From Antedon mediterranea (lineage: Eukaryota; Echinodermata; Crinoidea; Comatulida; Antedonidae), in assembly GCF_964355755.1 (NCBI RefSeq), contig NC_092670.1, positions 10,725,201 to 10,789,200 of the forward strand: a stretch of DNA of 64,000 nt. The letters are read 5' to 3'. This document shows positions 8,890 to 61,957 of this stretch, one piece after another (within the stretch, counting starts at the first letter, position 1; each line of letters starts with the position of its first letter). Under the pieces are notes generated by a model that ran no database searches, was not told the DNA's origin, and worked only from the letters and a program-made list of their open reading frames with translations. The translations under genes and the position numbers were made by a program.

Positions 8890-9140
8890 TTATGGTACTC
8901 TTTTAATCATCATCACTGTCTTCTTGAGACTGTAGTGATTAGTATGGAAATCATACCAGATGATGCCTGTCGCATTATCGGTACCTGGTTTAAGGTAAAG
9001 CCCATTCAGATTTGAACGATAGCAGTTATTGTACCACCAAGCACCTTTGTATTGCTCAGCACAGTTATAACTTCTCTTATCATTGTCTCTGTTGTATGTT
9101 GTAAATTGTTTATCATTGTGAATTGATGCCAAAGAATCAC

Positions 9141-9576
9141 CTAAACAAACAAAATCTTCAGTTTACTTCATTAATATTGAATTTATTTGTTTTTAAAATA
9201 AAAAATAATAATAATAAAAACAATATTACCTACAAACCCAACTTTTTTCTCCTCAAAATATCAGTATCAATAAAACACCTGAAATGTGTTTATAACATCA
9301 TGAAGGTATGATTTTATTTGATTAGGTAAAGAAATCTATAATTGTGTAATAAAAATATTCTACTGCAGTTACGAGATATATGTGCATGTTATCAGACCTC
9401 GTGCAATGATTTCGTTCGTCGGCTTTTGTACCTGATTTTGAATCCCATTTTCTCACTTTCTTACTAGATAAGCTCTTTCACTCTGTTTATATTTATTATA
9501 ACCACGATAAATATTGGCATCCAGATCTTGTTGGCCGATTGCTACGTTCTGAAGAACTCAAATGGCCGATTGCTAC

Positions 9577-9664
<88 letters not shown>

Positions 9665-10039
9665 AACTTTAAAGGTCAATTAATTTTTAAAAATGGATTT
9701 GCACACAGTAAAGTATTTTATTTACATGTACCATAAAAATGACAAAAGTCGCCTCCCCTAAATTTAATTAAAACAGCACCACCGCTACTTGGTTACAGTA
9801 CATGTATCAAGTTCTGTCCTTATGATATAACTGTGTTTAAGCAGTCGTAATTCTAAAATTGCTTTTTATTATATATACTTTAGACCTAAATGTGACAAAT
9901 GCAACAGAAACCCTACAGTATGTTAGTAGTGCATGACTATTTTTACTGCTAGATACAAAGGCCTACAAAAAAGTTAATTCTATGTTTAATTGAAATGTGC
10001 TATTTTAGAGTGTAAAAATTGACAGAAAGATATACTAAC
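9141..10039. other. Intron between FReD exons 2 and 3 of gene 1
   Basis: Starts with GTTAGTATA and ends with GTTTAG on the minus strand. Contains the TA microsatellite at 9579-9661. No coding signal seen. Confidence 0.7.
9579..9661. repeat. (TA)n microsatellite
   Basis: About 80 bp of almost pure AT dinucleotide, interrupted once by GATT. The apparent plus-strand ORF of alternating Tyr and Ile here is an artefact. Confidence 0.95.
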
Positions 10040-10301
10040 CTGCCGTTCCTGTGTATCCACTGATTGTCAAATTATAGTTATACTCTTCAGTACCAACTCG
10101 AACGTGAGAGTAGTTTGCGATCTTCGTTTCATCCAAGTGATCAGTCATTTCTACTAATAGCTCAAAATCTCCATCAGATGTTATACGGTGGATCTTTTCG
10201 TTACCAAGCCAGAACTCTGTGTTCACGTTTCCAAAACCCTCTTTGTATTCTGCCCAATTACGATAGAAATCAACTGATCCATCTTGTCTTCTCTGTATCA
10301 C

Positions 10302-11657
10302 CTGAATGATAATAATGATAAAAGTAATAGTGTAACACTCTGACCATCAGGTCAACAACCCTTTTACACTATTTCTCCCTACTCCATCTATTAACATTCC
10401 TAGTGGTTTCTTCCTATCCCTAGTCACTATCCTATAACCCACATCCTTAATCAATTACTGTTTTCTCATCATCAAGGAATGTTCCCTTTACTAAATAGTC
10501 CCCTCCCGTTACATGCATATTAATTAGGACCGTTCCTTAAATATGAATATACTGGTAAGAGAAGAGAGAAGGAAAAGAAGAGCTTGATAGAATAAAACAT
10601 TTATAAATAGAGAGAAAATGTATTTGAGATAGCCAGAACAGACTGTATTATATTTAGTATTGAAATAAAACTATATCTGGACAAAACCATATTTACTGTT
10701 TGTACATTTCTGTGACTGTGTGAAATCCTGCCGCTGATACTATATGATATAGTAACGGATACACTAAAATACCACCGTTACAACTGGTTCCCACACAATT
10801 TGAACCCACAGAAGCCAATAAAACAAAAAGAAAAAAGAAGAAAAAACAAGAAGATAAAACATGGATCAGATTTGGAGTTTGCAGAGTTTGTGGAGCTGCA
10901 GATGCTGATGGATGAATGAACCCAGACAAAGAAGAGCAAAAGAAGAAAAAACGAAGATTATTGGATGAAACAATTGCAGGACCAGCCCCAGGAATAGAAA
11001 ACGGAAGACAGAAGAGACAACGCCGAGGACAAGGAAGAAGATCATTAACTGTTTTTTGCGACCTTTTGTTTCACTTTCTTTTGACATTTTAATACTATTT
11101 TTGAACGCTTTATATAAATTTATAACATTTGTTTAATACTTTGGATGGCCTGGCTGATTTATTTTTAAACATTATTTTGGACGTTAACCTATAGTATATT
11201 CAGCTTGGATTGAACACAATATTAACGATGTGGTAAGTGATCCATCATTTCTAGTTCTTTTCTATAACCTCCTCTTTCTTCGGGTGATATATTATTATTA
11301 TAGATATAATCATATTGTAACATGTTTTTACGTTCGGGAAATTCGGCTGTTAATACTCCAATTTCAACACACAGTCTTATACCTGGTAAAGATACTAGCC
11401 CGATTACCCCATCACCCACCTCATTAACACAACTGGATTTAGCCCTTTCTGGCAACACTTCAACATAATTTTCAGCCTGTAACGTCCCACTGCTGGGCAA
11501 CGTTTCTCTGCTAAATCATGACATTATTTTCAATAATAAATGATTTCTGTCCACGCTGAACCCTGGCAGTACTTACAGTAATGATGATGCACCGTTTTCG
11601 TTTTTTGGAATGAAGTAATAATTAAGGATATCTTAGAATATTGCCTACACTTCTTAC
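10302..11657. other. Intron between FReD exons 1 and 2 of gene 1
   Basis: 1.36 kb with GT-AG ends. An A/G-rich stretch at 10800-11050 (AAGAAGAAAAAA runs) and generic AT-rich sequence; no exon recognised. The duplicated copy at 57.5 kb starts at about 11308, inside this intron. Confidence 0.6.
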
Positions 11658-11801
11658 CGTCCAATTGCCACTTTCCCTAATGTCACAGTACACAGCAAAC
11701 TCTGGTCCTCCATCACATGGCTGCATCACATATTCACCACTCACAGCAGAAGGATAACATTGTAAAATGTCTCCACAGCCCCTCATAAAACACTCTAAAA
11801 T

Positions 11802-11895
11802 GTACAAAGTTTGATGTGTTTAACACATCAAACTATATTTTAGTAATTTTATTAATACATTTAGGCCTACTCAATTTTGTATTTAAACTTTGTAC
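11802..11895. repeat. Inverted repeats next to a FReD acceptor site
   Basis: Two nested inverted repeats. 11809-11819 pairs with 11824-11834 (AGTTTGATGTG / CACATCAAACT, perfect). 11802-11812 pairs with 11885-11895 (GTACAAAGTTT / AAACTTTGTAC). The outer arm reproduces, on the opposite strand, the pyrimidine-rich acceptor of the 137-nt FReD exon. Present again at 58000-58093. Confidence 0.75.
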
Positions 11896-11900
11896 TTTCA

Positions 11901-13549
11901 GAGAAAAGGATTAGTAAGGCAGGATACGAATCATTGGGACCGAAGAAGACCAGTAAGACAGGATACGAAATATCGGGATCGAAGAGGACCAGTAAGACAG
12001 GATACGAATCATCGGGACCGAAGAGGACCAGTAAGGCAGGATACGAATCATCGAGACCGAAGAGGATCGGTAAGGCAGGATACGAATCATCAAAACCGAA
12101 GAGGATCAGTAAGACAGGATACGAATCATCGGGACCGAAGAGAACCAGTAAGGCAGGATACGAATTATCGGGACCGAAGAGAACCAGTAAGGCAGGATAC
12201 GAATCATCGGGACCGAAGAGGATCAGTAAGGCAGGATACGAATCATCGGAACCGATGAGGACCAGTAAGGCGGGATACGAATCATCGGGACCGAAGAGGA
12301 CCAGTAAGGCAGGATACGAATCATCGGGACCGAGGAGGACCAGTAAGGCAGGATACGAAATATCGGGATCGAAGAGGATCGGTAAGGCAGGATACGAATC
12401 ATCGGGACCGAAGAGGACTAGTAAGGCAGGATACGAATCATCGGGACCGAAGAGGACCAGTAAGGCGGGATACGAATCATCGGGACCGAAGAGGACCAGT
12501 AAGGCAGGATACGAATCATCGGGACCGAAGAGGATCAGAAGGCGGGATACGAATCATCGGGACCGAAGAGGACCAGTAAGGCAGGATACGAATCATCGGA
12601 AGAGGACCAGTAAGGCAGGATACGAATCATCGAGACCGAAGAGGACCAGTAAGGTGGGATACGAATCATCGGAAGAGGACCATTAAGGGAGGATACGAAT
12701 CATCGGAAGAGGACCAGTAAGGCAGGATACGAATCATCGGAAGAGGACCAGTAAGGCAGGATACGAATCATCGAGACCGAAGAGAACCAGTAAGGGAGGA
12801 TACGAATCATCGAGACCGAAGAGAACCAGTAAGGCAGGATACGAATCATCGGGACCGAAGAGGACCAGTAAGACAGGATACGAATCATCGGGACCGAAGA
12901 GGACCAGTAAGGCAGGATACGAATCATCGAGACCGAAGAGGACCAGTAAGGCAGGATACGAATCATCGGAAGAGGACCATCAAGGGAGGATACGAATCAT
13001 CGGGACCGAAGAGGACCAGTAAGACAGGATACGAATCATCGGGACCGAAGAGGACCAGTAAGACAGGATACGAATCATCGAGACGGAAGAGGACCATTGA
13101 GGGAGGATACGAATCATCGGAAGAGGACCATTAAAGCAGGATATGAATCATCGGAAGAGGACCATTAAGGGAGGATACGAATCATCGGAAGAGGACCATT
13201 AAGGGAGGATACGAATCATCGGAAGAGGACCATCAAGGGAGGATACGAATCATCGGAAGAGGACCATCAAGGGATCAGATTCGAATCATCGGAAGAGGAC
13301 CATCAAGGGAGGATACGAATCATCGGAAGAGGACCATTAAGGGAGGATACGAATCATCGGAAGAGGACCATCAAGGGAGGATACGAATCATCGGAAGAGG
13401 ACCATCAAGGGAGGATACGAATCATCGGAAGAGGACCATCAAGGGAGGATACGAATCATCGGAAGAGGACCATCAAGGGAGGATACGAATCATCGGAAGA
13501 GGACCATTAAGGGAGGATACGAATCATCGGAAAAGGACCATTAAGGGAG
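11901..13549. repeat. 39-bp / 34-bp minisatellite array
   Basis: The first ~800 bp is tandem 39-bp units, roughly GACCAGTAAGGCAGGATACG followed by AATCATCGGGACCGAAGAG. From about 12665, 34-bp units lacking the GGACC step become dominant. Because 39 is a multiple of three, the plus strand holds a long 13-residue-periodic reading frame. It lies in the PAN-to-FReD intron of gene 1 and is not conserved outside the duplication, so it is treated as non-coding. An identical-length copy is at 58099-59747. Confidence 0.95.
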
Positions 13550-14776
13550 TGTTTAATTGCAGGAATGGCTCAAAGATTTTAAGACATATTGTACACATTA
13601 TTATTTAGATCTAGATGTAAAGTTTGATGCCATATTAAGTCATTTGGGGGATCGGCTAAGGAAACTAGGTACATTACCAAATGTCCATATTGGGTACAAG
13701 TAAAAATTCCAGAAAAGCCATTCAAGTATTACAAACTTTTTTACCGTTCTGGGGGACAATTACATCTTTAAGCGTGAGGTTAGCACTCGTAAAAAAGAAA
13801 AGCATTACATTCAGTTGGTAAATTAACTTCTTTAAACATGACTGACAAATTAATAAATAACATTTTGAATTAAACTAAATATATACAGTAGAATGGACAG
13901 AAAAGGAGAAAGAAATACTATAAAAAAAATCAAACAAAGAAGAAACTTCGTCCGTTTATGTATTGAATTGGAAAAGTTGTGTATTGAGGGCGCTGCGTTG
14001 TCATTCTGTAATTAAACATACAGGTGATTGTGTGTGATATAATGCCGTGCGTAAGCAGAGCGGGTCTTTTGTTCGTTACAGTTGTTATTTTGCATTTGCA
14101 GTTGTTAGCATATATGTAAGTTATTGTATTATATACTGTATTTAGCAACTGAATTACATGTAATTTACTTGGTTATAATAACATTACAGTTCTTGTTCAT
14201 ATCGTAGGCCTATGTAGGCCTATAAGCAATTTACCAAACTAATAATCATGCTGTGCTTAGCAATAAATGTGTCTTACATTTACAATATTTATCTTAGTTT
14301 TGATATGTTTCGAATGATTTTCGGGCGACTATTATATGTAGTCAATGTGCTCGATCAGAAGTAATGGGTCCACACATGTGTTTAGGGCAAGTTGCCGTGT
14401 CACGAACATCAAAGAAATTAGAAACCCTGTCTAATGAGGAAAATGTTAAAAGATACTAACATCAAAACAAAGGTAAAATGTGTAAAATATAGTCTGATAT
14501 CGGGTAATAAATACATAGTTTTAAGTATTATAATAGGATACAGTTTTCCTTCTGTAGTTAAATTAATTAAATTAACTAAAACTAAACTTTAGTACTGTGC
14601 TTATTCCGGGGGTAGGGGAGTTACTCCCTGTACAAACAACTCTAATTTTTCAGAACCATCGTCGTACAGCCGTCGCTAATCAAACAATTCTTCATCTATA
14701 CACACACACACACCAGGAAAGAGGGTTCAAACCATCCGTTAAAATGATTTACCATATAACAAGGATTTGACCATGT

Positions 14777-14844
14777 AAACAATGTTTTTGTTTGGCTGTT
14801 AATGGAGTCATTTTAACTCAACAGCCAAAACGAAAACATTGTTT
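14777..14844. repeat. Hairpin, ~24-bp stem with 19-nt loop
   Basis: AAACAATG...GGCTGTT at 14777-14800 pairs with AACAGCC...CATTGTTT at 14820-14844, with one mismatch and one bulge. Intronic (gene 1). It could be a tiny inverted-repeat element or a structured RNA; nothing else supports a gene. Repeated at 60975-61042. Confidence 0.65.
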
Positions 14845-15468
14845 ATTGAACAGGTTTATACACGCTAGCACACATCTCATAGACCTTCCCAGACGTGCTT
14901 TGGGGGTTGAGGATGCATGATCCTAAATTTGTCCTTTTTAGGTCATATGCATACATATTATTTTCAAAAGCAATATATATTTCTATTTCTATATTTCTTT
15001 TCACATTTACTTTAAATAGGTTAAAATAATGAGTGTAATTGATGCGTCAAAACTATGACCTCTTCTGATTCCAACACATATAGACCTATTAACATTGCTT
15101 AACATTAAATCGTTGAAAATTGAACTTGTTCACAATCTTAATATAAATGTGACAAGGTGACAATTTCTTTGTTACAAAAATGATACGTAGGTTAATCTAT
15201 TTTGTGTATTTTAAACTCTTCTATGAAGAAATTTCAACTGGAAATTCTTTAATAAACAAATTATTGTACAACTATGCCATTCGACTTGTAATATTTTGGG
15301 CTTTCTTCCAATTTTTGCATACCTATACGTATACCAATTTCCATTTCCTTTTCCATCGTCTATTGTAGCAAACGGTAACAAAATATCACTACCAATCAAC
15401 ATTGGTATAAACCTCCATATAAAGAATCAATTTATTTAATATAGAAGTTTGCAAAAATTTATACTTAC

Positions 15469-15759
15469 TCCTTTCAATGTAACAAAATTTAGGCGTTTGA
15501 ATTATGTTTTCAACTGATGCTTTTTCCAGTTTTTTCTGACTGATTTGACAAACACTATCTTTCTGGTTATAGTTAACAGACAGGCAATCGGATTGCTTGG
15601 AACATTCCAGCAAACAATTTAGTTTATGTATATTCTTCAACTCGTATAGTAACTCCAACCTTCAAGAGCATGCCCTTGGAGAATAACAGTATAATTATAT
15701 GTATTGATCGAATCATCACTGATGACAAATGACAGAAGTAAGACAATTAAAGTTAGCAT
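15469..15759 (-). pseudogene. Exon 1 of gene 1: signal peptide + PAN/apple domain with 5-nt insertion
   Basis: ATG at 15759 followed by a hydrophobic leader. The PAN core is visible in the shifted frame: CLLECSKQSDCLSVNYN then CQISQKKLEKASVE (Cys pattern CxxxC...C...YN...C). The donor is GGA|GTAAGT at 15469/15468. 291 nt instead of an expected 286. Confidence 0.85.
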
Positions 15760-15931
15760 TTCGACGTTTTTAGAATTATGTAGTGACGAATGAAACGGTT
15801 ATTGTGCCAATACAATCTACAATTCGTCTTAAAATACTCGATGATACTGTATGAGTTACCTAATGTGGTACGAACTATATTTTTATCTTTTACATATTCC
15901 ATTATCCAATCACTTTACATACAACCCAGTG

Positions 15932-15973
15932 TGCACCAATCAAAATGGTGATAGTAAGATATGATTTACATAA
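15932..15973 (-). promoter_or_regulatory. Conserved upstream block of gene 1 (CCAAT-type)
   Basis: 42 nt, about 175-215 bp upstream of the ATG, matching 46338-46379 upstream of gene 2 with only two differences. On the gene strand it contains TTTTGATTGGTGCAC (inverted CCAAT box) and ATGTAAATCATAT (octamer-like). A second GATTGG lies nearer the gene at about 15905-15912. Conservation against a more diverged background suggests promoter function; no TATA box is assigned. Confidence 0.5.
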
Positions 15974-15978
15974 ACAAA

Positions 15979-18319
15979 GTTAAACATGAGGATATAGTAG
16001 GGAGGCCAATGTGAGCTTTTTCATCATTGGGGACATTTTCTGTTAATAGCAGGCAACCATGTGGAATATGTTCCTTATGGGATGAAAAAAAAAATAGGGG
16101 TGGATGCCGCTCTCAAATTTCAAGTTAAAGGTCATTTTGAAGGTTATAAGGTCAAATATGGTAAAATCGGGATTTAAGGTGTTTTCAACAACTTATAAGC
16201 AAATTAAAACATATTTAACAATAATTGACATCATGTCGATGATGATCAAGTTTTTCAATATATCAACTTAAAAGTTTAAAGGTCATTTTCAATGTTATAA
16301 GGTCAAATTATGGTAAATTCATGTTTTTTAGCTGGTTCAACAATGTACAAGCAATATGAAACAAATGTAACAATTATTAGATAATTATTGACGTATTATA
16401 GAAGATGGTTAAGTTTAAAGGTCATTTTCAAGGTCATAAGGTCAAATAGAACACAGACCTGTTAATTATTATCAGTATTAATAATTTAAATAAATATAAA
16501 TAAATAACTAATTTTCATGAGGATAACCTGCTGGGGCTGATGGGTAGTGATGTGTCAAAATTACCAGAATTGTCCTGGGGAGATTTTAAACTTGACATTT
16601 CATGGGGAGTCATGGAATATAAAAATAACCGGAATTTAAGATTTTTAAGAATTTTAAAAGAATCACAGAGGGGTTGTGGGTTGGAAGAGACCATGGAATA
16701 TCAACATGAGCGGAATTTGTACTTGGAATGTTTTAAACTACTGGTGTAGGATTGGGAGAGGTAGCCGCACTGGGGTGGGTATTTCTTCTATTACATAATA
16801 TAATTGCATGCATATTAGCCAGCTGGGTATTCAACAATCACACATGCATATTTACGGCAACAAATATATCTGGCTCTTTCATTTCATTTTGACCATAATA
16901 TTGATTTACAAATTCCATTTACAAGGAGTGGATGCGTTACGAATGATTTCCAGTATGACTGCTTCCCATAACCATCAAATGATGATGTCTTGACACCTGT
17001 AAAGGTACGAAAGCTGTTTTGATTATCCGTAATATTTTTTCGGCCACTTTTTTGTTCAGTATACCAGATATCGTCCTTTAGTATGTTTGCTATAAGACTT
17101 AAAAAGTGCACATTATTACACATCAACTGTCATGTATAAGCACATAAGCTTCTTCGTGATTGATATAGCAGATCATTTCTCCTTGTTTACCTTGCATCTT
17201 GAAAATCTACCCACTGTTACCAACTCGTATTATTCTTGAACTGTTCTCTATGTATTCATTATCTAGGTAACTAAAATGCCTGACAGCCATGTTTACTGAA
17301 TCCTTAAACTAGTAATGAATGATTATCATGTTTTTAAGTTCCAGCTTCTGGAACATCTGTGAGTATGTCAACGCCATTCACCATTAAATTATGTATGAAG
17401 TCAGATTTGACTAAAGAAATTGAAATTGAACTATGATCAGGCTCTACTTTATGATATTGACCAACTCCAATGGTTGGTCAGCAGATTTTCTGTCAGCTTT
17501 TTTTCGTAAATTTTGTTTTGATATGCACTATTAGAAATGGTTGCCTTATAGAAATCAGCAAAGGTTTAGAGCGATGCTTTCTCAGTGGCTTATAAAATTC
17601 TACTGTTTTTCTCTTTCTTTAAATGTAAGCTCTTCCACATCATCCGTCAGGTTGAAAAGATATTGTGTATGTACCATGTCATGCAGAACCTATCACTGAA
17701 TGAATTGTTTCTTGTTGTACCATAGGCCTATAATTCTATAGGCCTAACAAACTTCTCAATATTACGTTATATATAGATAGTAATAATATTATAGTAAAAT
17801 ATGAATATTTTGGCACATATGGCGTTTCATACCTATAATAATTTAACTATTTTCCCGACTAAAATCGAAACGCTGACTGGTGGACAACATAAAAAAAGAC
17901 AAATTAACAACAGACTGGGGAAAGTCTAAAAAAAATTTGTTGTAATTAAAAGATGTTTTATCTGAATTATGTTAAAACAAAATTTTGAGAAAATGACACT
18001 TTTGTATTTAATTTCCTATATTTTTATGTGTAGAATAAAATGCTTATCTTATAATTACTATAATATAAAACATTAGTTGATCTTTGTTGATGATTTTCCA
18101 TGAATAAAGTAAAAATCCCATATTTTGACCTTGTTTGACCTTTTGACAATATAAACTTACCTTAAAACCTAAAACTGAGAATGGCATCCACCCCTATCAT
18201 TTTTTGTCAACCCACAATGGATACATTCAACATGGTTGCCTGCTATTAACAAAAAATGCCCCCCAAACCTTTTCTAGAGGACTTTTGAGTATTTGGCCTC
18301 ATGTTAAACATGAGGATAT
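15979..18319. mobile_element. 2.3-kb inverted-repeat element with 17-bp flanking direct repeats
   Basis: GTTAAACATGAGGATAT occurs at 15979-15995 and again at 18303-18319. Between them the ends are inverted repeats of ~150 bp with gaps: AGGCCAA, then GTTAATAGCAGGCAACCATG (16041-16061) and AGGGGTGGATGCC (16097-16109), match the reverse complement of 18184-18297. The paralogous position upstream of gene 2 (about 46380-46440) lacks the element and has a single stretch of similar length, which supports a real insertion. I recognise no transposase inside; 16884-17126 (minus) is open but of unknown meaning. Subterminal repeats carry AGGTCA motifs. Confidence 0.7.
16127..16447. repeat. Subterminal AAGGTCA-rich repeats
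   Basis: Three diverged repeats of AAGGTCATTTTCAAGGTCAT AAGGTCAAAT form at 16127, 16277 and 16418. Each contains two or three AGGTCA half-sites in direct orientation. These are likely transposon subterminal repeats that happen to match nuclear-receptor half-sites. Confidence 0.6.
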
Positions 18320-21816: not shown

Positions 21817-22684
21817 TATATTATTAACCTGTTGTGAGTACCATATGTTACCAAATCCATTTATGCATAGTATTTGTTTTACGTCATTGGCCCAACATTG
21901 ATCATTTCTTTGAGCTTTTCTATATTGAAAATCATAACATTGTTTAATAAATTTGTCATTATCCATTTGGATTACTCTTAGCCAGTAACGAATTATATTA
22001 ATGATAATTTGAATTTGGATAGTAAATCTTCCACATTCTCCTCTCACTGCAACACTTGGTGCAGAATTTTTTTTTTAAACACCATATTTAATGAGGGTTA
22101 TCCATCCAGCTATTGCTGATCATTAGGGACCCTCAGAGGTTCACACGACAAACATATACACAAGATGCTCTACATAAACAAAGTCTTATTACAAGTCTTT
22201 GGGAGTGAATTGTAATTTGGTCCTTAGAAAAAATCCTGACATGTGACGGGACTTGGAGTGGTAGCCAAGCATCATAACCACCAAGCCACAACTCCACTCC
22301 TAGAATGTATTTACAGAATCTTAGATGAACTTTCTCTAATACTGATATATCATTTAAACCCCATATTTCGCTACCATAAAGTAGGATTGGCATAATCTTA
22401 ATATCAAATATGGTTCCATATATTAACTTGGAGGTTGCCAAAACGCATATGGGTCAATCCCTTCAATGTGAACAAAGCCTTATTAGCTTGTTGACAATTG
22501 TATTCTTTAGCTATTCCAATTACCATTTGAGTTGAAAACAACTCCTAAATATTTAAAGGATTTGTCAATGTCAACTGTATTTCCATTGTAATTCCATTGT
22601 TCAAATTTGTTAAGACTACCACCATTCTTAAACACTACAATATTACTCTTGTTAACATTGACAGTTACATCCCATCTTGTACAA

Positions 22685-23234: not shown

Positions 23235-23430
23235 CAATAGTAGATAACTTGTTTAAATAATATTGTAGACCATAAACGGTATCACCGAATAATATAAGGT
23301 CATCTGCATAGAGTAAATGATTAATTTTTAGATTTCCTATTTGGATTCTATGCCCGTCGCCTTCCTCATTTAATGTTTCACTCAAATCATTAATAAAAAT
23401 ATTAAATAACAAGGCCATATAGATGGCTGC

Positions 23431-31490: not shown

Positions 31491-31501
31491 TGAACATTCT
31501 C

Positions 31502-46681: not shown

Positions 46682-48908
46682 CATAATTAAAACAATAATG
46701 AAAATATTAACAATCATATATCAACAAAACGATTTTTACAGAATGATCCACAAAGATATTCGGGAGTTATCCATGTTGAACACCCTTTAATGACCTAATA
46801 TATGTACGTTATCCATTACATTTGTTGTCGTTCTCCAGCTCTGTAATTTTGATTCCAATATTTACAGTTACATTTTCTATGGTTACATCGTTATTGTACA
46901 AATCTAATTAATTTTCAAAGAAAAGTAAAGAATTTATCATGTCATGTATAATAATAATAATAATCAACCACCTTCTGAAAATGATTAATACGGCGCTTTA
47001 TTAAAAGTGTTCATTGTATCATTAACTCATAAGATTATTGTTGAATATGTATTATAGTTATGTATTCTGAGATCGTACAAGGTCGCAAAATATAATACTG
47101 TATTTGGGTGTATTATGCTGTGAAAAGTACTGCAATTGTGTAATTCTAATCAAAATTAGTTTAATTATTGAAAACATACCTTTTGCATAGAATAATAGCA
47201 TTTGTAAATTTAGTGTCTTTGAGAAATTAAATTGGATGGTGTTGCAATAATTCATTTTTCATAATTATGTTGTTTGCATACATCTTTAAAACACACTTTT
47301 TTAATTAAATACTATAGATATTACTATTTTTTATATATATTTAACTGCAAAGTAAATAATACAAATTCATGTTTGGAGACCAAAAAGAAGTTCTAACCAT
47401 GAAAAGTATAAAGTATTTGCGATAATTTGTAGAAAGTTTCGAAATAACCCATAAAAAATCACCCAGCACTTAGTACAGTAGGTAATTCAGATCTTTCTTT
47501 CTTCTGTTCGATTTTACTGTATGCAATTTCATTGACGGATTTGAGGATTAATAAATGGGGAAGGTGTGCTTAAAAATTGTGAACTTAAAGGATTAACTTA
47601 ATAATAGTATACTTTTCCATTGCAGTTTCCCAAATTTAGAAGGGGTCTAGACGGGTGAGGAACAATTTAAAAAATAAGAAAATGTCAGTTTAACTCTGGA
47701 CGTATGCAATATTTGGTGGTGGGAAGTGCAAACGAGTCTCCACAACATCAAGCACACTTGTTGGAGCTGAGGTATGAAAATTGTGAAAATATAAACCTGG
47801 AATTGCTCCCTATAAACGTATGGATACTATACAAATTGCAGAAAACAATTCAAACCGCGCAGTTTACTTCAGCTGGTTGCGTTTCTGTTCCTTTTAAAAT
47901 AACAAACTGATGGTCTATCGAAAATCTTGTACATCTTTGTACACACTGCGCAAGATCATTCCGCAACATAAAGGGATTGCTTCTGAATGTTCGACTGACA
48001 CACACACACACAGATACCAACCTAGCTAGTCTTCATCAGACACGGTGGATAGCAAAAGAAGAACGTATTCCAGATCGTGCATAATAGCATACAGTATTTT
48101 GATCCGATGATGTGCTTTCAGTTTTAAATAAAATATTGATAATTCTGTGTTATTCTGTGAGGAATACGTAGAAGTGTGATTTCAGGGCTAGATCATGTGG
48201 TTGGATGAAATATGATTGACCATTTGTCTAGCCAACCAAGAATTCAGGTTAAGAGCTGTGAATTATCAAATAAATAGTTAAACTTTTGTGATAATTTTGT
48301 ATTTGGCCATTTTATTTCTGTTACACATATTTGTTTTATGTACATTTAACCATATATTATTTGAGCTTAAAAAATCAATCACTAATGTAACAGTTTCTTT
48401 AAGCACTAACAAAACAAACTTCATTAACCACTAATGTAACACTAATATAAATTTAACCACTAACGTACAGTAGAAAATGTTGAGATATGTTTGGACTTAA
48501 ATATTCTGTATTTTTTTGCGGAAAAATTCTTTTAAGTTGGAAATCTTTTTTGTTCAAGTTCAATTTTAATCCTGTGTGTTTTTTACAAACCTATGTTTAA
48601 ATTTGTGCAAATACATCTCTTTACTTAGCTATCAGTCTCCACCTTTCGTAAAGCGACCGACTTTAAAAAACAGCCATCTCGTAAGTAACCACCTCCTTAA
48701 AACGACCATATATCGATATGATGCCAGTGTTATTATAATTATGTACCTGGTGTAAGATAAAGGCTATTCAGGTTTGAACGATAACAGTTATTGTACCACC
48801 AAGCACCTTTGTATTGCTCAGCACAGTTACTACTGCATTTCTTATCATTGCCTCTGTTGTATGTTGTAAATTGTTTACCATTGTGAATTGATGCCAAAGA
48901 ATCACCTA
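46682..48908. repeat. Copy C of the PAN-FReD 3' flank (duplicate of 5360-7696)
   Basis: Offset 41322-41324 from copy B at near identity. It lacks about 100 bp near 48215 relative to B, includes the foldback left arm (48645-48717) and ends in the same FReD exon fragment. Confidence 0.88.
48724..48906 (-). pseudogene. Truncated FReD 3' exon with adjoining intron (copy C)
   Basis: Same fragment as 7506-7690, but here the intron 5' of the exon continues for about 190 bp (48907-49096), aligning with the introns of genes 1 and 2 (AAACAAAACA...CTTTAGTTTACT). That intron then meets the Harbinger element. Confidence 0.85.
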
Positions 48909-49335
48909 AACAAACAAAACATATCATCTTTAGTTTACTGCATACATGCAGTTTTTTTAATACAATTGTTTTATTTAAACATGTAAAAAATTAATATATG
49001 CTATGTAAAATGATGCATACCTAATGAGTGTTTTGATTTATTTATGCTTTTTGAGATTCACATCCTGTTTTAGGAGATTTTTTAATTAATCTTGTACAAT
49101 ATCCCTTTCACACCAAAAGCAAAACTCCGGAGACACTCCGGAGACACCCCGGAGTTGACGTCCCGCTGTTTGGTGTGAAAGGTAAAATCAAGCAACTCCG
49201 GAGTTTAAAACTGCGGGGTTGAACAGCTGAACATTCTCCGGAGAGCGAACTGCGGGGACACCCCGGTGTTTTGGTGTGAAAGGTACCAACATCAAACTCC
49301 GGAGTGTTTCGGGTCAAAAGGTTATCCTCGCACAA

Positions 49336-50035
49336 TCAATTGTTTATTTAGTTTTATTTCAAAAAACTTTAAATTTAGTAAACAAATATATAGCATGTAT
49401 TAGAAAATAAAAATTGATAAATAAAATATTATAGGATTTTTGAGAAATTTTAAAATAATTAGTAAAGCATAAAAATATTAATAAGTATAGCCTAATTATT
49501 GTTCGCAGTATTTTGCCCGCGAAAGTTATCACGTATCGTTTTATAGCTTTGTTGTTTGGTTTCGATGGAGTTGAATAGATTTTTTACTTTTAATAGCCAA
49601 TAATCTATCGTTTCAACAATAATATATGACAGTTTAAGTATTAAGATAAGTATATTTCTAATACTCATTTACCTAGGCCTAGTAGTAGGCCTAAAAATAC
49701 TAGGCCTACTAATAGTAATACTAGCGAGGCTACTAAACAATCTAGGCGCTAATAGAATTAGGCCGCGTAGCCTAGCAATTTAGCTACCAGACTATAGCTA
49801 GGTACTGTAGGCGGCGCGGGTATGTGCGTAATCAGCAGTCACTTCGATCGGTCGTGACGGTCTGTTGTGTTTTTAAATTGTATTCACATACCTATAATAA
49901 CAAACAAGTTAGCTGCTATATTATAGGCCTTCTTAGTTAGTTCTTCTAGGGACTAGGCTAGTTACACAGCGTCAGAGAGTCTGAGAACGTCAGACTCAAT
50001 TTACTTACAAGTTACAGTAATATCCTACCCTTATA
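49336..50035. promoter_or_regulatory. 5' region of the Harbinger accessory gene
   Basis: About 700 bp between the TIR block and the ATG; AT-rich then increasingly TAGGCCTA-rich (49670-49830) with a few CpG-rich stretches. No TATA box can be assigned with confidence. Confidence 0.3.
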
Positions 50036-52380
50036 ATGTCGGTGAAGAGTAAGAAGAAAAGTAGTTGTAGTAGCAGGCCTGTCCCTATTATTAGGCCTAG
50101 ACCTAGTAGTAGTAGTACGAGCAGTAGCCTTAGTAGGAATAACATTAACAGTAGCCCTCGTAGTAGTAGTAGGCCTACTAAGCCTATTATTAAGACCAAT
50201 GGAACATGGACTCCAGGACAAATCCGCCTACTATTAGATATCCGGGGTGAGGCTGCCGTCAATACCATGGTGAATGGTACAAGCAGGGATCGTCGTTGCT
50301 ACGACAAAGTAGCAGAGAGACTAAAGGTCAGTTTGAAATGGTAACTAATAATTAATACAATACAATAGACCTAGGCTAGGCCTAGTAAATACTGTAGGTA
50401 ATAAATGATTACACTGACCTACTGTGTACTTCCTTTATTGTTATTCATGCGGCTGATTTAGAATATATTCTGTGTATTAAATTGAATATTTATTGCGAGT
50501 GACTGACTTTTTTGTTGTTTTTTAGGAAATGGGTGTTTTAGATAAAACACATGCCCATATCGTGTATAAACTTAAGGCATTAAAGGCACAATTTTTTAAA
50601 ATTTTACGACTGAATAAGACATCGGGAGAAAGGAGACAGAGCTATGAATTTTATGATCAGTGCCAGGCAATATGGGGAAACTCAGCATTAGCTAAACCTT
50701 TAAATATAATAAGTGCTGTACATAGAGAGCAAGAGTCATCCGACAGCAGTGATGATGAGGAAGGCACTTCAATGTCGACTGTACAGATAGATGAAAATAA
50801 TGATATACCAGTTGGTAAGTTTTATACTATTTTTGGGTAATATCACTTAAGTCCTTGTTGAACGGTATTACAATTGGTAAAATTACAAATAACGTTAAAA
50901 AGCATAACATATTATAGTACTGTAATTATTTGAAAGTTTTATTACTTGTACAATTTAAAACTTGTTTATATTGCACAACAGCATAGCATTCAATTCATCT
51001 AAAAAGTAAGACAGATTACTAAAAAAAAATTATTTTGTAATGCTCATTTACAACTGAAAAATTAACTAAAATTACTAATCAGGTTTCAATAAATATTGGA
51101 GTAATGAGAAAACTTCAATATATTTTACCAACAAATATTCTTTTTTCATTATAATATCATGCTTCTTCAATATTTGTCATATTGTACTTTGTTATGGGAA
51201 CTATTACAAATAAACATTTTCAATGCCCATGTATTACCACACGGTAACTTCAAAGTTTGACCATCTCTTTAAATTACAGAAAAAAGCGCTTTGTATTTGT
51301 TCTAAATCAACTTATCTAGCTCATACCAAACCACTCTTAAAAATTTAAAACATAAAATATTTTTGATATCAATAGTTTGCAATCTGCTTTTTTTATGTAC
51401 AAATACGAAAATAATAAACTCATGAAATCATTTAATAACTACTTAACTTTATGAAACATAGTCAACTAAATAGGCATAATACACGCAATGCAAATGATTA
51501 TCTTTTACCTAAATGTACAAACAATTTGATCAAGAACTCTATTAAATACCAATAAGCTTAATTATGGAATTCAATCCATGTAGATATTAAAAATGCATCT
51601 ACAACTTCTAAATTTAAATTAGTATACAAGAACTATTTACTTTCAAGATATGATGCATGGCTTATTTGTATGTTGATACATTTTATCAAAACTAATTTCA
51701 GTGATTGCCAATGCAATTGTTGATATGCAAATGGTAGAAAGAGGATTAGATGCAGAGGGAGAACAAGCAGCAGAAGAGGAGGAAGAACAAGAAGAAGCAT
51801 CAGCAGAAGCATCAGCTGAAGAAGAAGAAGAGGTTGCTGTACCAGTTGCAGAACCAGCATTACCTGCAAGAAGTAGGTGGTGGCAATTACTTACTTTAAA
51901 AATTCATAAATAAAGTTTAACAGAAAGTGTTTGGTCTAACCGTGGCAACATTTTTTGTCAAGACCCACTTAATTTACTTTCATCAACATTTTCAATTTTT
52001 TTCAGTTTTTTGGCAGAGTATAAATTAAAATATAAAATTTCATGTATGCATTTTTAGGACCACCAAAAAAGGCCAAAAAGAAGACTAAACTACAGGAAAC
52101 TCTGGATGCGGTCACTGGCTCATTAGTTCAGGTCATGGGGGAGCAAAACCGGCAATTTGCTGAAGAAGAAAGACAGAGAGAGGAGCGACATCAGATGGCG
52201 AATGACAACTTGGTAAGGCAGCATAACGAAAATATGCAAACAATGATGGCATCTTTTCAAGAAAGCCAGAGGCAGACATTGGCAATGCTTGCCCAATTTT
52301 TGCAACATCCCCGCCCTAATTACACTCTGCCTCCAATGCTTCCCAATTATAATCCTCACCCACAAAATCCTCCACAATAA
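50036..52380 (+). CDS. Harbinger accessory protein, Myb/SANT-like DNA-binding with acidic and coiled-coil parts
   Basis: Four exons: 50036-50326, 50526-50814, 51702-51872, 52058-52380, with GT-AG introns and consistent phases (0, 1, 1). Total 1074 nt, 357 aa. Residues 1-50 are Ser/Arg/Pro-rich and basic. About 54-150 is a Myb/SANT (trihelix-like) domain: TWTPGQIRLLLDIRGE, DRRCYDKVAERLK, HIVYKLKALKAQFFKI and the end ECQAIWG-like QCQAIWGNS. 165-195 is Ser/Asp/Glu-rich, exon 3 is strongly acidic (poly-Glu), and exon 4 begins with basic PPKKAKKKTK and ends in a Gln/Glu-rich coiled coil plus a Pro/Asn tail. In the Harbinger family a Myb-like partner is required with the nuclease for DNA recognition and nuclear import; that role is inferred here. 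No stop or frameshift. Confidence 0.88.
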
Positions 52381-52642
52381 AATAACTTGTTTTAAATGAA
52401 TACATTAATTAATACATATGTTCCTTATGCTGTCTCACCAAGTTGTTATATAATTATATTGAATTTATAATAAATAAAAATTATTATTAAGGTAAGATAT
52501 GTACTACATTAATAAAATATTGATTAAACTACTAAACTGTATTTGAAAATGACCCATTCATACAGTATTTATAATTAACAAATGGTGTACAAAAATAAAA
52601 TTAAAAAAACAAAGCTTATTGGTATTTGAATTACTTTTTAAA

Positions 52643-55229
52643 TTAAATCGTGAGGTATGCTGCAATAGCATCTCTTATTTCAGATGCTCTTTCAGGTCGG
52701 TCATTAATTGGATCTTCATCTGGTTGAATCAAACCATGCTGCACCTCTTCATTTATTGTTACATCCCACTGTGGGTTATACACATCTTTGTGAATTTCAC
52801 AAAAGTTGTGCAACACACAGCAGGCTGCAACAATGTCACTTGAAAATATTGTGGAGGTGTCGTTGCGCTTAAGTAGTCGTCTCCATCGCCCTTTAAGTCT
52901 TCCAAAGGCGTTTTCCACTACAACTCTGGCTGAACTTAATTGCCGGTTGAAATGACGTTGGGTTGGAGTTAGGTGGTTGTTGTTGATGTAACCTTTCATC
53001 AACCATGGCTGCAACGGATATGCAGGATCGCCAATTAAACACACTGGGACATTCAACCCACTCAACTGCTTGTTTTTCTACAAACACAAAAGGGGAAATG
53101 ACATATTATGTACTGTACAGTATCTAAATTGCATTTCATGTAAAATAAAATGTTTTATGTATAGTAATATTCAAACATGTTTAAGAAACGTACCTCTGCA
53201 CTGAAGAGTAGGCCATTGTTGTTGGCAGCTAATTCAGGCAGAGCTGAGTGGGCAAAGACCCTAGCATCGTGTGTGCGACCTGGCCATCCTGCATATATAT
53301 CAGTAAATCTGTAAAATTATTAATAAACCTTAAAACCAGTGCTATAAATACATTATTGATACTTTTTACGTCAGCTGTTAAATTTTATCAAGAATGGTGT
53401 GTGTGTGTGAAAGAATATCATTCAGTTACTGTTAAGGATACAGTATACCAGTTACGGTAACTCATGACATTAATTGTTATATGGTACCTATACTTATGGT
53501 CCACAACGGCTTGAAGAATGATGCTGTACCATCCTTTCCTGTTGTGATAGTCCGCCTTGTTCTCTGATGGGCCGAGAACCGGAAGGTGGGTACCATCAAT
53601 GGCGCCAGCACATTGTGGAAAACCTTTCTGTTCAAATCCACTGATGGTATCATCTAATCTCTGACCTGTATATTTGTAAATAAAAAATGCCATTTGGTAA
53701 ATGATGAAATAAATAAGTTGTACAATATTGTTAAAGAGGTACAGTATTGTCCCACAAAAACATGGAAGATGAGGATTAAAAAAAAACTTTGAATAGGCCA
53801 TTTTTTTTTCGTAGAAAGAAAATACAGAATAATCGGATAAATTCAACAAAAAACTTCCAGTCAATTTGACTTTTTTTTTAAAATTACAGATTGTTATGAA
53901 AAAAAAATCGATTTTTATGATCCAAGTTTTTTTTTTCAGGGGAAAAATAACTATGTTGTATTTTTATAATAAAAAAAATAAAATATTCGCATATACCCTT
54001 TGGCAGTGAAATATAGCGTTGAAGAAACTCTCTGTTCTTTAAGGCAGCCACAACTTGATGTGCTATTGTGCATAGCGTCGATATTCCTATTCCAAACATA
54101 TTGGCCAGTGACCTGACAATTTAAAAAAAAGCATTTTGTTATAGTCAGGAGGTAATATAGCTAATAACATTTTGAGTTATCAATTATGGTATGGTGCAGA
54201 GTGAATTTTCATTATGCCTAGCCATATTACGAGCCATATTATAAGGGAAATTAAATCTTTTTTATAAGTTTTTGTTTTGTTTATATAGGCCTAGTAAACA
54301 TAGTAAAAGCAAACTATTGACCCCCAAACAAATGATGAAAATTGTAACAAAGTGTTACAATTTCCTCACGACGCGCAAAAGCCCTTGGCATTTGCACGCA
54401 TCGGCTGTATATCATTCATTTGTGACTCTAACTTCTCGGTGTGTAGGTGCTACGTGTAGGCTCACATGGCCTAAGCCTAGATTAAAAAGATATAGGAAAT
54501 AGTTCTGATATAGCCTTATATTTTTATTGACTCATGTAGTGGACATATACAGTATCTAATTCCAAGGTAGGAGTAAAAGAATTTAGAGAATGTAGGAGGC
54601 CTATGCCTATATTTAGTTTCAAAAAGAGTGGGCTGATCTCAGTATAGTAATTAATTTACTGATTGATTGATTGAAGGGAATCTTTGTTATTCCTATGTAT
54701 GACATATAGTAGAATTAAATAAATTATCAATCACTAGAGAGATAGATACAATACAGTACCTATATTCGGTTGGTGTTGCCAACCACCAAAGAGTGATTCC
54801 AACTCGTTCCTGATATGGGATTGATCGCCGGAAGTTTGTGTCGCTCTTCTCTATCTGGGGCCTCAATAACTCGCATAAATTATTAAATGTATCGCGACAC
54901 ATGCGAAAATGCGAACGAAAAATTTGATTATTATAATGATTGACTTCATAAGTCCAAAATAAACGTCCATACTCTCTGTTTCGAGCCCATAGGCCTCGCT
55001 CGATCGTTGAAGATCTGACGGTCGCCGCGATCAAGTGGGCCGTGATGGTTTGTTGCTGCAGCCTACAGAATCTCTCACGACGATGGACGCGTCCTCTTCT
55101 GAAATTGGAATTGCTTTCATTTATAGAAAAACTTAACTGTTGATTGGCGTTGTTGATTTGTAATAAAAAAAGGTAATTATTTGATAACATGTGATTAATT
55201 AGTAAAATTGATTGATTTTGATCGTCCAT
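52643..55229 (-). CDS. HARBI1-like: HARBI1-type transposase (DDE endonuclease, DDE_Tnp_4)
   Basis: Five exons on the minus strand: 55229-54760, 54112-53997, 53665-53488, 53308-53194, 53077-52643. Phases 2, 1, 2, 0 all agree; 1314 nt, 437 aa, longer than the ~350 aa of vertebrate HARBI1 because of an N-terminal extension. Family motifs in order: ERVGITLWWLATPTEYRSLA, FGIGISTLCTIAHQVV, CAGAIDGTHLPV (first catalytic Asp), GWYSIILQAVVDHKYRFTDI (second Asp), GWPGRTHDARVF, GDPAYPLQPWLMKG, SSARVVVENAFGRLKGRWRR (catalytic Glu), AACCVLHNFCE. It cuts and joins DNA at the element ends with 3-bp target duplications in known relatives. Convergent with the accessory gene, 262 bp apart. No disabling change seen; probably active or recently active. 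Confidence 0.93.
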
Positions 55230-55403
55230 CGTCGCGATGTAAACGAACAGAATAGAGGGCGGTATTTATATTTTTATTTAAAAAACTCCGGAGTTGCTAG
55301 GTTGGTGTGAAAGGGGTATCTCCGGAGTTTCTCGACGTTTTGAATGGTCATAAACCCCGGGGTGTCTCCGGAGACACTCCGGAGTTTTGGTGTGAAAGGG
55401 GTA

Positions 55404-56300: not shown

Positions 56301-56379
56301 AGTAGTTAAACAACATGGTTTTTATTTGTGTTTCGATTCGGACTGCAACAAAAATCGTGAAGCCGGCCCTTGTTGGTAT

Positions 56380-57165: not shown

Positions 57166-57508
57166 GCTAATAATATCCAGAAGTTTGATATAAAGTCAAA
57201 GTGTACAAAAAGGACTTTTATTGTGACCCCCTGATAAAAAAAAAAAAAGGTGTATTTTAATATTTGCTGTTCTGTATACTTATGTTTGTTTAGACATCTT
57301 ACAGTACTTACCATATTTATTTGAATTGTCAGGAAGGGTGTATGCGAGGGGTGGGAGTGATTTTTATTCATAGCGGCATGTTTATTCAAGAAAATACGGT
57401 AGTGAGTCGCCATCTTGGAAAAATAAAAAATAAAAAATAAAAAGAGCCTCTTCCTTCCTTTTTTTAGAAAACCAGGACGATCAACTGTTGTTTTTTTTTA
57501 CATGGCCT
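57166..57508. other. Junction sequence before the second duplication block
   Basis: AT-rich with AAATAAAAAATAAAA runs (57420-57440) and poly-T; no gene seen. Homology to 11308 onward begins at about 57509 (TAATCATATTGTAACATG). Confidence 0.5.
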
Positions 57509-57858
57509 AATCATATTGTAACATGTTTTTACGTTCGGGAAATTCGGCTGTTAATACTCCAATTTCAACACACAGTCTTATACCTGGTAAAGATACTAGC
57601 CCGATTACCCCATCACCCACCTCATTAACACAACTGGATTTAGCCCTTTCTGGCAACACTTCAACATAATTTTCAGCCTGTAACGTCCCACTGCTGGGCA
57701 ACGTTTCTCTGCTAAATCATGACATTATTTTCAATAATAAATGATTTCTGTCCACGCTGAACCCTGGCAGTACTTACAGTAATGATGATGCACCGTTTTC
57801 GTTTTTTGGAATGAAGTAATAATTAAGGATATCTTAGAATATTGCCTACACTTCTTAC

Positions 57859-60800
57859 CGTCCAATTGCCACTTTCCCTAATGTCACAGTACACAGCAAA
57901 CTCTGGTCCTCCATCACATGGCTGCATCACATATTCACCACTCACAGCAGGATAACATTGTAAAATGTCTCCACAGCCCCTCATAAAACACTCTAAAATG
58001 TACAAAGTTTGATGTGTTTAACACATCAAACTATATTTTAGTAATTTTATTAATACATTTAGGCCTACTCAATTTTGTATTTAAACTTTGTACTTTCAGA
58101 GAAAAGGATTAGTAAGGCAGGATACGAATCATTGGGACCGAAGAAGACCAGTAAGACAGGATACGAAATATCGGGATCGAAGAGGACCAGTAAGACAGGA
58201 TACGAATCGTCGGGACCGAAGAGGACCAGTAAGGCAGGATACGAATCATCGAGACCGAAGAGGATCGGTAAGGCAGGATACGAATCATCAAAACCGAAGA
58301 GGATCAGTAAGACAGGATACGAATCACCGGGACCGAAGAGAACCAGTAAGGCAGGATACGAATTATCGGGACCGAAGAGAACCAGTAAGGCAGGATACGA
58401 ATCATCGGGACCGAAGAGGATCAGTAAGGCAGGATACGAATCATCGGAACCGATGAGGACCAGTAAGGCGGGATACGAATCATCGGGACCGAAGAGGACC
58501 AGTAAGGCAGGATACGAATCATCGGGACCGAGGAGGACCAGTAAGGCAGGATACGAAATATCGGGATCGAAGAGGATCGGTAAGGCAGGATACGAATCAT
58601 CGGGACCGAAGAGGACTAGTAAGGCAGGATACGAATCATCGGGACCGAAGAGGACCAGTAAGGCGGGATACGAATCATCGGGACCGAAGAGGACCAGTAA
58701 GGCAGGATACGAATCATCGGGACCGAAGAGGATCAGAAGGCGGGATACGAATCATCGGGACCGAAGAGGACCAGTAAGGCAGGATACGAATCATCGGAAG
58801 AGGACCAGTAAGGCAGGATACGAATCATCGAGACCGAAGAGGACCAGTAAGGTGGGATACGAATCATCGGAAGAGGACCATTAAGGGAGGATACGAATCA
58901 TCGGAAGAGGACCAGTAAGGCAGGATACGAATCATCGGAAGAGGACCAGTAAGGCAGGATACGAATCATCGAGACCGAAGAGAACCAGTAAGGGAGGATA
59001 CGAATCATCGAGACCGAAGAGAACCAGTAAGGCAGGATACGAATCATCGGGACCGAAGAGGACCAGTAAGACAGGATACGAATCATCGGGACCGAAGAGG
59101 ACCAGTAAGGCAGGATACGAATCATCGAGACCGAAGAGGACCAGTAAGGCAGGATACGAATCATCGGAAGAGGACCATCAAGGGAGGATACGAATCATCG
59201 GGACCGAAGAGGACCAGTAAGACAGGATACGAATCATCGGGACCGAAGAGGACCAGTAAGACAGGATACGAATCATCGAGACGGAAGAGGACCATTGAGG
59301 GAGGATACGAATCATCGGAAGAGGACCATTAAAGCAGGATATGAATCATCGGAAGAGGACCATTAAGGGAGGATACGAATCATCGGAAGAGGACCATTAA
59401 GGGAGGATACGAATCATCGGAAGAGGACCATCAAGGGAGGATACGAATCATCGGAAGAGGACCATCAAGGGATCAGATTCGAATCATCGGAAGAGGACCA
59501 TCAAGGGAGGATACGAATCATCGGAAGAGGACCATTAAGGGAGGATACGAATCATCGGAAGAGGACCATCAAGGGAGGATACGAATCATCGGAAGAGGAC
59601 CATCAAGGGAGGATACGAATCATCGGAAGAGGACCATCAAGGGAGGATACGAATCATCGGAAGAGGACCATCAAGGGAGGATACGAATCATCGGAAGAGG
59701 ACCATTAAGGGAGGATACGAATCATCGGAAAAGGACCATTAAGGGAGTGTTTAATTGCAGGAATGGCTCAAAGATTTTAAGACATATTGTACACATTATT
59801 ATTTAGATCTAGATGTAAAGTTTGATGCCATATTAAGTCATTTGGGGGATCGGCTAAGGAAACTAGGTACATTACCAAATGTCCATATTGGGTACAAGTA
59901 AAAATTCCAGAAAAGCCATTCAAGTATTACAAACTTTTTTACCGTTCTGGGGGACAATTACATCTTTAAGCGTGAGGTTAGCACTCGTAAAAAAGAAAAG
60001 CATTACATTCAGTTGGTAAATTAACTTCTTTAAACATGACTGACAAATTAATAAATAACATTTTGAATTAAACTAAATATATACAGTAGAATGGACAGAA
60101 AAGGAGAAAGAAATACTATAAAAAAAATCAAACAAAGAAGAAACTTCGTCCGTTTATGTATTGAATTGGAAAAGTTGTGTATTGAGGGCGCTGCGTTGTC
60201 ATTCTGTAATTAAACATACAGGTGATTGTGTGTGATATAATGCCGTGCGTAAGCAGAGCGGGTCTTTTGTTCGTTACAGTTGTTATTTTGCATTTGCAGT
60301 TGTTAGCATATATGTAAGTTATTGTATTATATACTGTATTTAGCAACTGAATTACATGTAATTTACTTGGTTATAATAACATTACAGTTCTTGTTCATAT
60401 CGTAGGCCTATGTAGGCCTATAAGCAATTTACCAAACTAATAATCATGCTGTGCTTAGCAATAAATGAGTCTTACATTTACAATATTTATCTTAGTTTTG
60501 ATATGTTTCGAATGATTTTCGGGCGACTATTATATGTAGTCAATGTGCTCGATCAGAAGTAATGGGTCCACACATGTGTTTAGGGCAAGTTGCCGTGTCA
60601 CGAACATCAAAGAAATTAGAAACCCTGTCTAATGAGGAAAATGTTAAAAGATACTAACATCAAAACAAAGGTAAAATGTGTAAAATATAGTCTGATATCG
60701 GGTAATAAATACATAGTTTTAAGTATTATAATAGGATACAGTTTTCCTTCTGTAGTTAAATTAATTAAATTAACTAAAACTAAACTTTAGTACTGTGCTT

Positions 60801-61957
60801 ATTCCGGGGGTAGGGGAGTTACTCCCTGTACAAACAACTCTAATTTTTCAGAACCATCGTCGTACAGCCGTCGCTAATCAAACAATTCTTCATCTATACA
60901 CACACACACACCAGGAAAGAGGGTTCAAACCATCCGTTAAAATGATTTACCATATAACAAGGATTTGACCATGTAAACAATGTTTTTGTTTGGCTGTTAA
61001 TGGAGTCATTTTAACTCAACAGCCAAAACGAAAACATTGTTTATTGAACAGGTTTATACACGCTAGCACACATCTCATAGACCTTCCCAGACGTGCTTTG
61101 GGGGTTGAGGATGCATGATCCTAAATTTGTCCTTTTTAGGTCATATGCATACATATTATTTTCAAAAGCAATATATATTTCTATTTCTATATTTCTTTTC
61201 ACATTTACTTTAAATAGGTTAAAATAATGAGTGTAATTGATGCGTCAAAACTATGACCTCTTCTGATTTCAACACATTTAGACCTATTAACATTGCTTAA
61301 CATTAAATCGTTGAAAATTGAACTTGTTCACAATCTTAATATAAATGTGACAAGGTGACAATTTCTTTGTTACAAAAATGATACGTAGGTTAATCTATTT
61401 TGTGTATTTTAAACTCTTCTATGAAGAAATTTCAACTGGAAATTCTTTAATAAACAAATTATTGTACAACTATGCCATTCGACTTGTAATATTTTGGGCT
61501 TTCTTCCAATTTTTGCATACCTATACGTATACCAATTTCCATTTCCTTTTCCATCGTCTATTGTAGCAAACGGTAACAAAATATCACTACCAATCAACAT
61601 TGGTATAAACCTCCATATAAAGAATCAATTTATTTAATATAGAAGTTTGCAAAAATTTATACTTACTCCTTTCAATGTAACAAAATTTAGGCGTTTGAAT
61701 TATGTTTTCAACTGATGCTTTTTCCAGTTTTTTCTGACTGATTTGACAAACACTATCTTTCTGGTTATAGTTAACAGACAGGCAATCGGATTGCTTGGAA
61801 CATTCCAGCAAACAATTTAGTTTATGTATATTCTTCAACTCGTATAGTAACTCCAACCTTCAAGAGCATGCCCTTGGAGAATAACAGTATAATTATATGT
61901 ATTGATCGAATCATCACTGATGACAAATGACAGAAGTAAGACAATTAAAGTTAGCAT
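57859..61957 (-). pseudogene. PAN-FReD gene 3: truncated duplicate of gene 1
   Basis: Exons 61957-61667 (signal peptide + PAN) and 57992-57859 (FReD start, 134 nt, one codon shorter: CYPAVSG for CYPSAVSG). Exon 1 has the same 5-nt insertion and premature stop as gene 1. The 262- and 251-nt FReD exons are absent: homology to gene 1 breaks inside the next intron and the segment to the left holds an unrelated Cys-rich gene and the Harbinger-split flank. The only FReD 3' piece downstream is the truncated exon at 48724-48906. Non-functional by frameshift and exon loss. Confidence 0.88.
58099..59747. repeat. 39-bp / 34-bp minisatellite, second copy
   Basis: Same unit order and total length as 11901-13549, with two substitutions noticed (58209, 58327). 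Confidence 0.95.

Follow-up and report, generated by a model that had tools for sequence, protein, structure and literature searches.

A secreted PAN and fibrinogen-domain gene array in a crinoid, with probable diversification of the ligand-pocket exon in certain gene classes

Introduction

Defence is the commonest role described for invertebrate fibrinogen-related domains (FReDs; PMC5877582), and how recognition proteins diversify in animals without antibodies is a long-standing question. Here we describe, in the crinoid Antedon mediterranea, a tandem array of genes that join a PAN domain to a C-terminal FReD encoded by three exons (exons 2–4). The window analysed is a 64,000-nt stretch inside this array (chromosome C1, NC_092670.1, positions 10725201–10789200 of the forward strand; GCF_964355755.1, assembly size 354 Mb); features within it are given in window positions and all others in megabases. 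We consider it fairly probable that this is a secreted lectin-type array in which the exon encoding the binding pocket, exon 4, is diversified while the rest of the gene stays uniform.

In the snail Biomphalaria glabrata, 39 of 40 fibrinogen-related proteins (FREPs) are encoded within ~5 Mb of chromosome 13 (PMC10903818), and FREP polymorphism is reported mainly in the immunoglobulin (Ig) domains (PMC5877582). Variability between individuals is also noted for mussel and oyster FREPs, in work cited in PMC5877582. The B. glabrata FREPs, which combine immunoglobulin superfamily (IgSF) and fibrinogen (FBG) domains, resemble the crinoid array in being clustered, diversified FReD genes with the FBG domain at the C-terminus. 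However, FREPs carry one or two N-terminal IgSF domains and are polymorphic there, whereas the 316-aa protein of gene B, the intact gene of the window, has no IgSF match in Pfam and variation in the array falls in the last FBG exon.

Proteins with both PAN and FReD include some Lottia gigantea FReDs and the products of four Crassostrea gigas genes (PMC7588048, citing Gorbushin 2010 and Huang 2015), and one Biomphalaria FREP carries a PAN domain plus an Ig domain (PMC7588048). The initial annotation of this locus called the PAN–FReD combination uncommon; uncommon it is, but its occurrence in molluscs means that it is not new. The molluscan proteins and the array share a PAN domain and C-terminal FReD in one protein and membership of a multigene family. 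Hypervariability limited to the pocket exon, a 16-nt exon and a megabase array were not found reported in published descriptions of the molluscan genes. In the crinoid assembly, neither the molluscan haemocyanin domain PF14830 nor COX1 was found, a negative that for PF14830 does not demonstrate absence.

In ficolins, tachylectin-5A and FIBCD1, the residues that contact ligand in the S1 site are conserved (PMC3908420). The array proteins share with them the FReD fold, the Ca2+ ligands and the Cys–Cys bridge beside the S1 pocket, but a PAN domain replaces the collagen or coiled-coil part and the S1 contacts are hypervariable. The 185/333 genes of sea urchins are mosaic. Some members of this otherwise similar set of immune genes are very diverse (PMC1988830). 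Their protein is unrelated, and variation in the crinoid array is instead restricted to the exon that encodes the pocket of a known lectin fold. Our literature search, which is not proof of absence, found no published description of FReD hypervariability limited to one exon. Hypervariability of the pocket exon alone in otherwise identical genes, with constant sister classes as a control, is therefore apparently new.

Divergence islands at exon 4

Three genes of the alpha class, at 10.109, 10.600 and 10.943 Mb, are identical in the PAN exon, in exon 3 and in 230 nt of 3' flank; their exons 4 differ pairwise at 14, 23 and 27 of 243 nt. The copies at 10.109 and 10.600 Mb, which lie 490 kb apart, carry 14 mismatches in 6,001 nt, and all 14 fall within 98 nt of exon 4, with none in exon 3 (0/261), the PAN exon (0/291) or the 3' flank (0/230). 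Four relatives on chromosomes C1, C4 and C10 provide an independent replicate of this pattern: exon 4 is 8–13.6% diverged, compared with 0.6–0.7% for the surrounding DNA, 0.4–1.1% for exon 3 and 0.7% for PAN. Because both flanks are identical, the islands are not crossovers and must stem from short-tract conversion or from local mutation.

Controls come from the same neighbourhood. Exon 4 of the gamma and beta genes differs at 0–2 of 243 nt, and neighbouring partial copies in the same blocks differ at 0–9 of 264. Since neither is hypervariable, exon-4 hypervariability belongs to particular gene classes and does not reflect their genomic region or the assembly. The diversifying pressure postulated in the initial annotation is thus supported, with the amendment that its target is the last exon, in some gene classes, and not the gene as a whole.

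Variable positions and the binding pocket

The framework codons of exon 4 are nearly invariant and the fold is kept; all but one of 60 exon-4 stretches retain an open frame, with in-frame indels. Variable columns were compared with the seven N-acetylglucosamine (GlcNAc)-site residues of M-ficolin listed in PMC3088710, the alignment being extended by hand to Y312. Six of the seven, the equivalents of F274, D282, H284, Y300, A301 and Y312, are variable, leaving Cys283 as the sole invariant column, and mean entropy is 1.74 bits at the contact columns versus 0.72 elsewhere (P=0.0013). The acetyl-pocket residues that typify the ficolin S1 site are accordingly not conserved, their columns being among the more variable. 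Of 21 unique array exons, 19 carry D at the Ca2+-ligand position equivalent to M-ficolin D262 and all 21 carry D at that equivalent to D264. This pattern points to a secreted lectin-type protein that would have lost the conserved acetyl site from its FReD pocket and whose pocket would differ among copies.

Within the array, the ratio of nonsynonymous to synonymous diversity (piN/piS) is 1.42 for exon 4 (bootstrap 0.98–2.16), 0.43 for exon 3 and 0.52 for the PAN exon. To judge from these ratios, purifying selection acts on exon 3 and PAN, and positive selection on exon 4 is likely, if statistically modest. Exon 4 is also mosaic: the nearest relative changes between thirds of the exon in 30 of 34 distinct copies, shuffling shortens the shared blocks (613 segments observed versus 796 after shuffling, standard deviation 10), and association between codons drops with distance (P<0.0005), decaying within ~17 codons. 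Adenine makes up 31% of variable and 36% of invariant sites, transversions slightly outnumber transitions at variable sites, and the three codon positions vary equally. Adenine-directed mutation and mutation like that by activation-induced deaminase (AID) were both rejected on this base spectrum.

Gene B, an intact PAN–FReD gene and crossover chimera

Gene B occupies 46229–31502 on the minus strand and comprises exons of 285, 16, 137, 262 and 251 nt with AG acceptors, GT donors and consistent phases, giving 951 nt of coding sequence with the stop and a 316-aa protein with a signal-peptide-like start, PAN and FReD. Exon 1 (45945–46229) encodes the signal peptide and PAN; a predicted 16-nt microexon (45213–45228), recognised by its AG/GTAAGT borders and phase, brings the phase back to 1. 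The FReD starts in exon 2 (38949–39085), has its core in exon 3 (38346–38607, conserved among copies) and its pocket in exon 4 (31502–31752), the exon that is hypervariable in several family classes. Tandem partial copies of exon 4 directly follow the stop (31270–31487, minus strand; individually 31487–31413, 31406–31306 and 31297–31270).

Pfam matches Fibrinogen_C at residues 104–313 (E=3.2e-64, 217 bits against a cut-off of 22); PAN_1 barely passes (E=2e-4, 21.5 bits against 21.4), while the PAN of the neighbouring gene A scores 26.9 bits and four core PAN cysteines are kept across the family. The PAN exon follows two splice designs, a phase-0 donor plus the 16-nt microexon in gene B and a longer single exon ending in phase 1 in gene A and the dispersed copies. 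Splicing of gene B exon 1 without the microexon was rejected, as it frameshifts the protein, and so was reading the gap in its PAN exon relative to gene A as an insertion, the GTGAGT donor being common to other array copies. That a single gene contains PAN and FReD with 137/262/251-nt exons had been proposed from the initial annotation; with both domains above cut-off in one protein, splice phase and the recurring joint order of the exons across the array support this assignment.

Four B-type units are present on C1. The two with exon 4 at 10.179 and 10.668 Mb have a different exon 4 (80% protein identity) and adjoin a gamma gene, whereas those with exon 4 at 10.709 and 10.757 Mb, the latter being gene B of the window, have an exon 4 of epsilon type and adjoin gene A, as epsilon does. 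In a three-way alignment of the window with the B1 and epsilon loci, the window groups with epsilon at 27 consecutive informative sites (31337–31738) and with B1 at 26 informative sites starting at 32230; the remaining seven, interspersed, are private to B1. Together with gene order, this places an unequal-crossover junction within 31739–32229 (minus strand). The exons 4 of B1 and epsilon lie 42.3 kb apart, a distance close to the spacing of tandem units (42.5 and 47.0 kb). On this alignment and gene order, unequal crossover joined B-type exons 1–3 to an epsilon exon 4, making gene B a chimera. Under the simplest reading, crossover at homologous intron-3/exon-4 regions would have produced the tandem duplication and the pocket-exon swap in one step, offering a base-by-base view of how a new pocket combination arises. 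Gene conversion was considered as the source of this exon 4; crossover fits better with the gene order and the one-sided switch of topology.

Intron 3 of gene B also holds a tandem repeat of ~50-bp units (36646–37243 and 32422–32663), whose copy number varies among the B, B1 and epsilon loci, and a 512-aa open frame of an element lacking long terminal repeats (non-LTR). Reverse-transcriptase-like open reading frames (ORFs) of several non-LTR elements, this one among them, lie at 34741–36279, 25217–25816 and 22133–25159.

Extent and age of the array

The C1 array extends over ~1.2 Mb, of which the window is a small part. A genome-wide search for the exons, suggested in the initial annotation as a means of counting the family, was carried out exon by exon. 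It yielded ~30 matches for PAN, 36 for exon 3 and 45 for exon 4 on the C1 minus strand, from 9.98 to 11.15 Mb, all three counts being lower bounds. A plus-strand group lies at 11.18–11.25 Mb, and additional groups occur at 3.0, 9.1 and 40.3 Mb of C1 and on C3, C4, C6 and C10, with near-identical relatives of the array genes on C1, C4 and C10. The order PAN, exons 2–4 recurs along the array; dozens of homologous exons in this conserved order, together with the E-values, exclude a chance origin.

Numerous array copies are 0–2% diverged across ~3 kb. The four B-type units differ from one another by 0.1–0.4%, two of them have a stop codon in exon 3, and gene A is disrupted in all four. The array is thus young and still expanding by recent segmental and tandem duplication. 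The birth-and-death evolution that the initial annotation had proposed is seen directly in these near-identical units, in their exon-3 stops, in the broken gene A and in the truncated gene C (described below).

Two blocks of at least ~130 kb, at 10.11–10.25 and 10.60–10.83 Mb, are nearly identical and ~490 kb apart; they may represent either a real duplication or a haplotype duplication in the assembly. A segment of >10 kb recurs with 98–99% identity on three chromosomes (C1: 9.044–9.052 and 11.841–11.849 Mb; C4: 14.785–14.793 Mb; C10: 12.325–12.333 Mb). It contains PAN+FReD genes together with a transmembrane-like gene rich in Ser/Thr, and its C4 and C10 copies have the same blocks in permuted order, as expected from a tandem array or a circular intermediate.

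Interpretation and alternative explanations

Under the account we favour, segmental and tandem duplication has enlarged the array and unequal crossover between exon-4 regions of neighbouring genes has exchanged the pocket exon, as in gene B; short-tract gene conversion among many copies could produce the islands, and selection may retain new pocket variants. Through the FReD, the proteins would recognise diverse glycans or other ligands exposed on microbes or on other non-self surfaces, and PAN may serve assembly or partner binding. The array proteins are probably immune, and the near restriction of differences between near-identical copies to the pocket exon suggests that diversification of what they recognise is ongoing in the animal. 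Several observations weigh against this account. The gamma and beta genes lack exon-4 variation; the excess of exon-4 piN/piS over 1 in the array is only marginal (P=0.035), and the ratio is ~1.0 with all clusters pooled. No single donor for the two alpha island tracts was found in the genome (best matches 88–91%), so whole-tract conversion from a copy in the present assembly is not shown. Finally, near-identical blocks could be overcounted through errors or haplotype duplication in the assembly, an effect that would not extend to the dispersed copies on different chromosomes.

The pooled ratio near 1, and an array rich in pseudogenes, fragments and recent duplicates, would also suit ordinary birth-and-death without special exon-4 exchange, in which the exon-4 variants are old, selection on them is relaxed or mildly positive, and conversion and duplication later homogenised their flanks. 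We think this unlikely, given the open exon-4 frames with in-frame indels (all but one of 60), the invariance of framework codons and most Ca2+ ligands beside variable pocket columns, and purifying selection on exon 3 and PAN; flanks homogenised precisely up to exon 4, in each of the hypervariable pairs, would, moreover, still require selection on exon 4. Were the duplicates instead alleles, with two haplotypes or repeated unitigs assembled in tandem, the near identity of the blocks ~490 kb apart would follow, but the units differ by real indels (a 6.5-kb insert at 48.9–55.4 kb; loss of exons 3–4 in gene C), dispersed copies on three chromosomes show the same exon-4 pattern, and the island needs explaining even between alleles; such an artefact seems quite improbable. 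Improbable to a still higher degree is a dedicated mutator, AID-like or template-directed in the manner of a bacterial diversity-generating retroelement, that rewrites exon 4. The exon-bounded variation of the alpha trio, the missing donor and the slight transversion excess are compatible with one, but variable sites have no adenine bias, codon positions vary equally, transitions do not dominate, copies share their variable codons blockwise, and the same exon is constant in another gene class.

A broader proposal, locus-specific rewriting of the pocket exon by ongoing short-tract exchange from many donors or by a targeted mutator, acting in the germ line or in somatic cells, is somewhat unlikely; if true, the array would be an invertebrate lectin repertoire generator acting on the fibrinogen pocket. 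A non-immune role, in gamete recognition, allorecognition or mucus and adhesive proteins under sexual or social conflict, is possible if doubtful: a diversifying pocket does not by itself identify its partner, but invertebrate FReD lectins are mostly defensive (PMC5877582). Since genes near-identical save for the pocket exon exist alongside sister classes in which that exon is constant, the origin of pocket variation and its effect on binding can be tested directly on a few natural variants.

Other features of the window

The initial annotation described three head-to-tail gene copies, only one of them intact. Gene B is intact, gene A frameshifted and gene C truncated, but A and C are one duplicated gene and not independent paralogs. 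Gene A (8890–15759, minus strand; exon 1 15759–15464, exon 2 11794–11658, exon 3 10301–10040, exon 4 9140–8890) is a pseudogene that retains its exons, its PAN frame being broken by a 5-nt insertion in exon 1. Gene C (57859–61957, minus strand; exon 1 61957–61662, exon 2 57992–57859), a segmental duplicate of A, shares this frameshift, has no exon 3 and retains no intact exon 4. The two are a single pseudogene, present once in each of two units of a 46-kb tandem duplication, whose shared part within the window spans 11307–17802 in the left copy and 57508–64000 in its partner (99.8% identical).

Loose pieces of the last exon and 3' flank are likewise real, although their number agrees only roughly with that first given. 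They include minus-strand exon-4 fragments at 7526–7689 and, as a duplicate of this, 48742–48905, and 3'-flank copies at 4493–4295, 44821–44566, 44779–44634 and 2983–2940. A 6.5-kb insertion at 48912–55403, the flanks of which are contiguous at 7695/7696 in the other copy, carries a HARBI1-like transposase ORF (53077–52643) and a Myb/SANT-like ORF, and looks like a PIF/Harbinger transposon. In genes A and C, the intron separating the PAN exon from exon 2 contains a GC-richer, strand-skewed minisatellite (11903–13549 and 58101–59747) with units of ~34 and 39 bp, which reads as TSKAGYESSGPKR.

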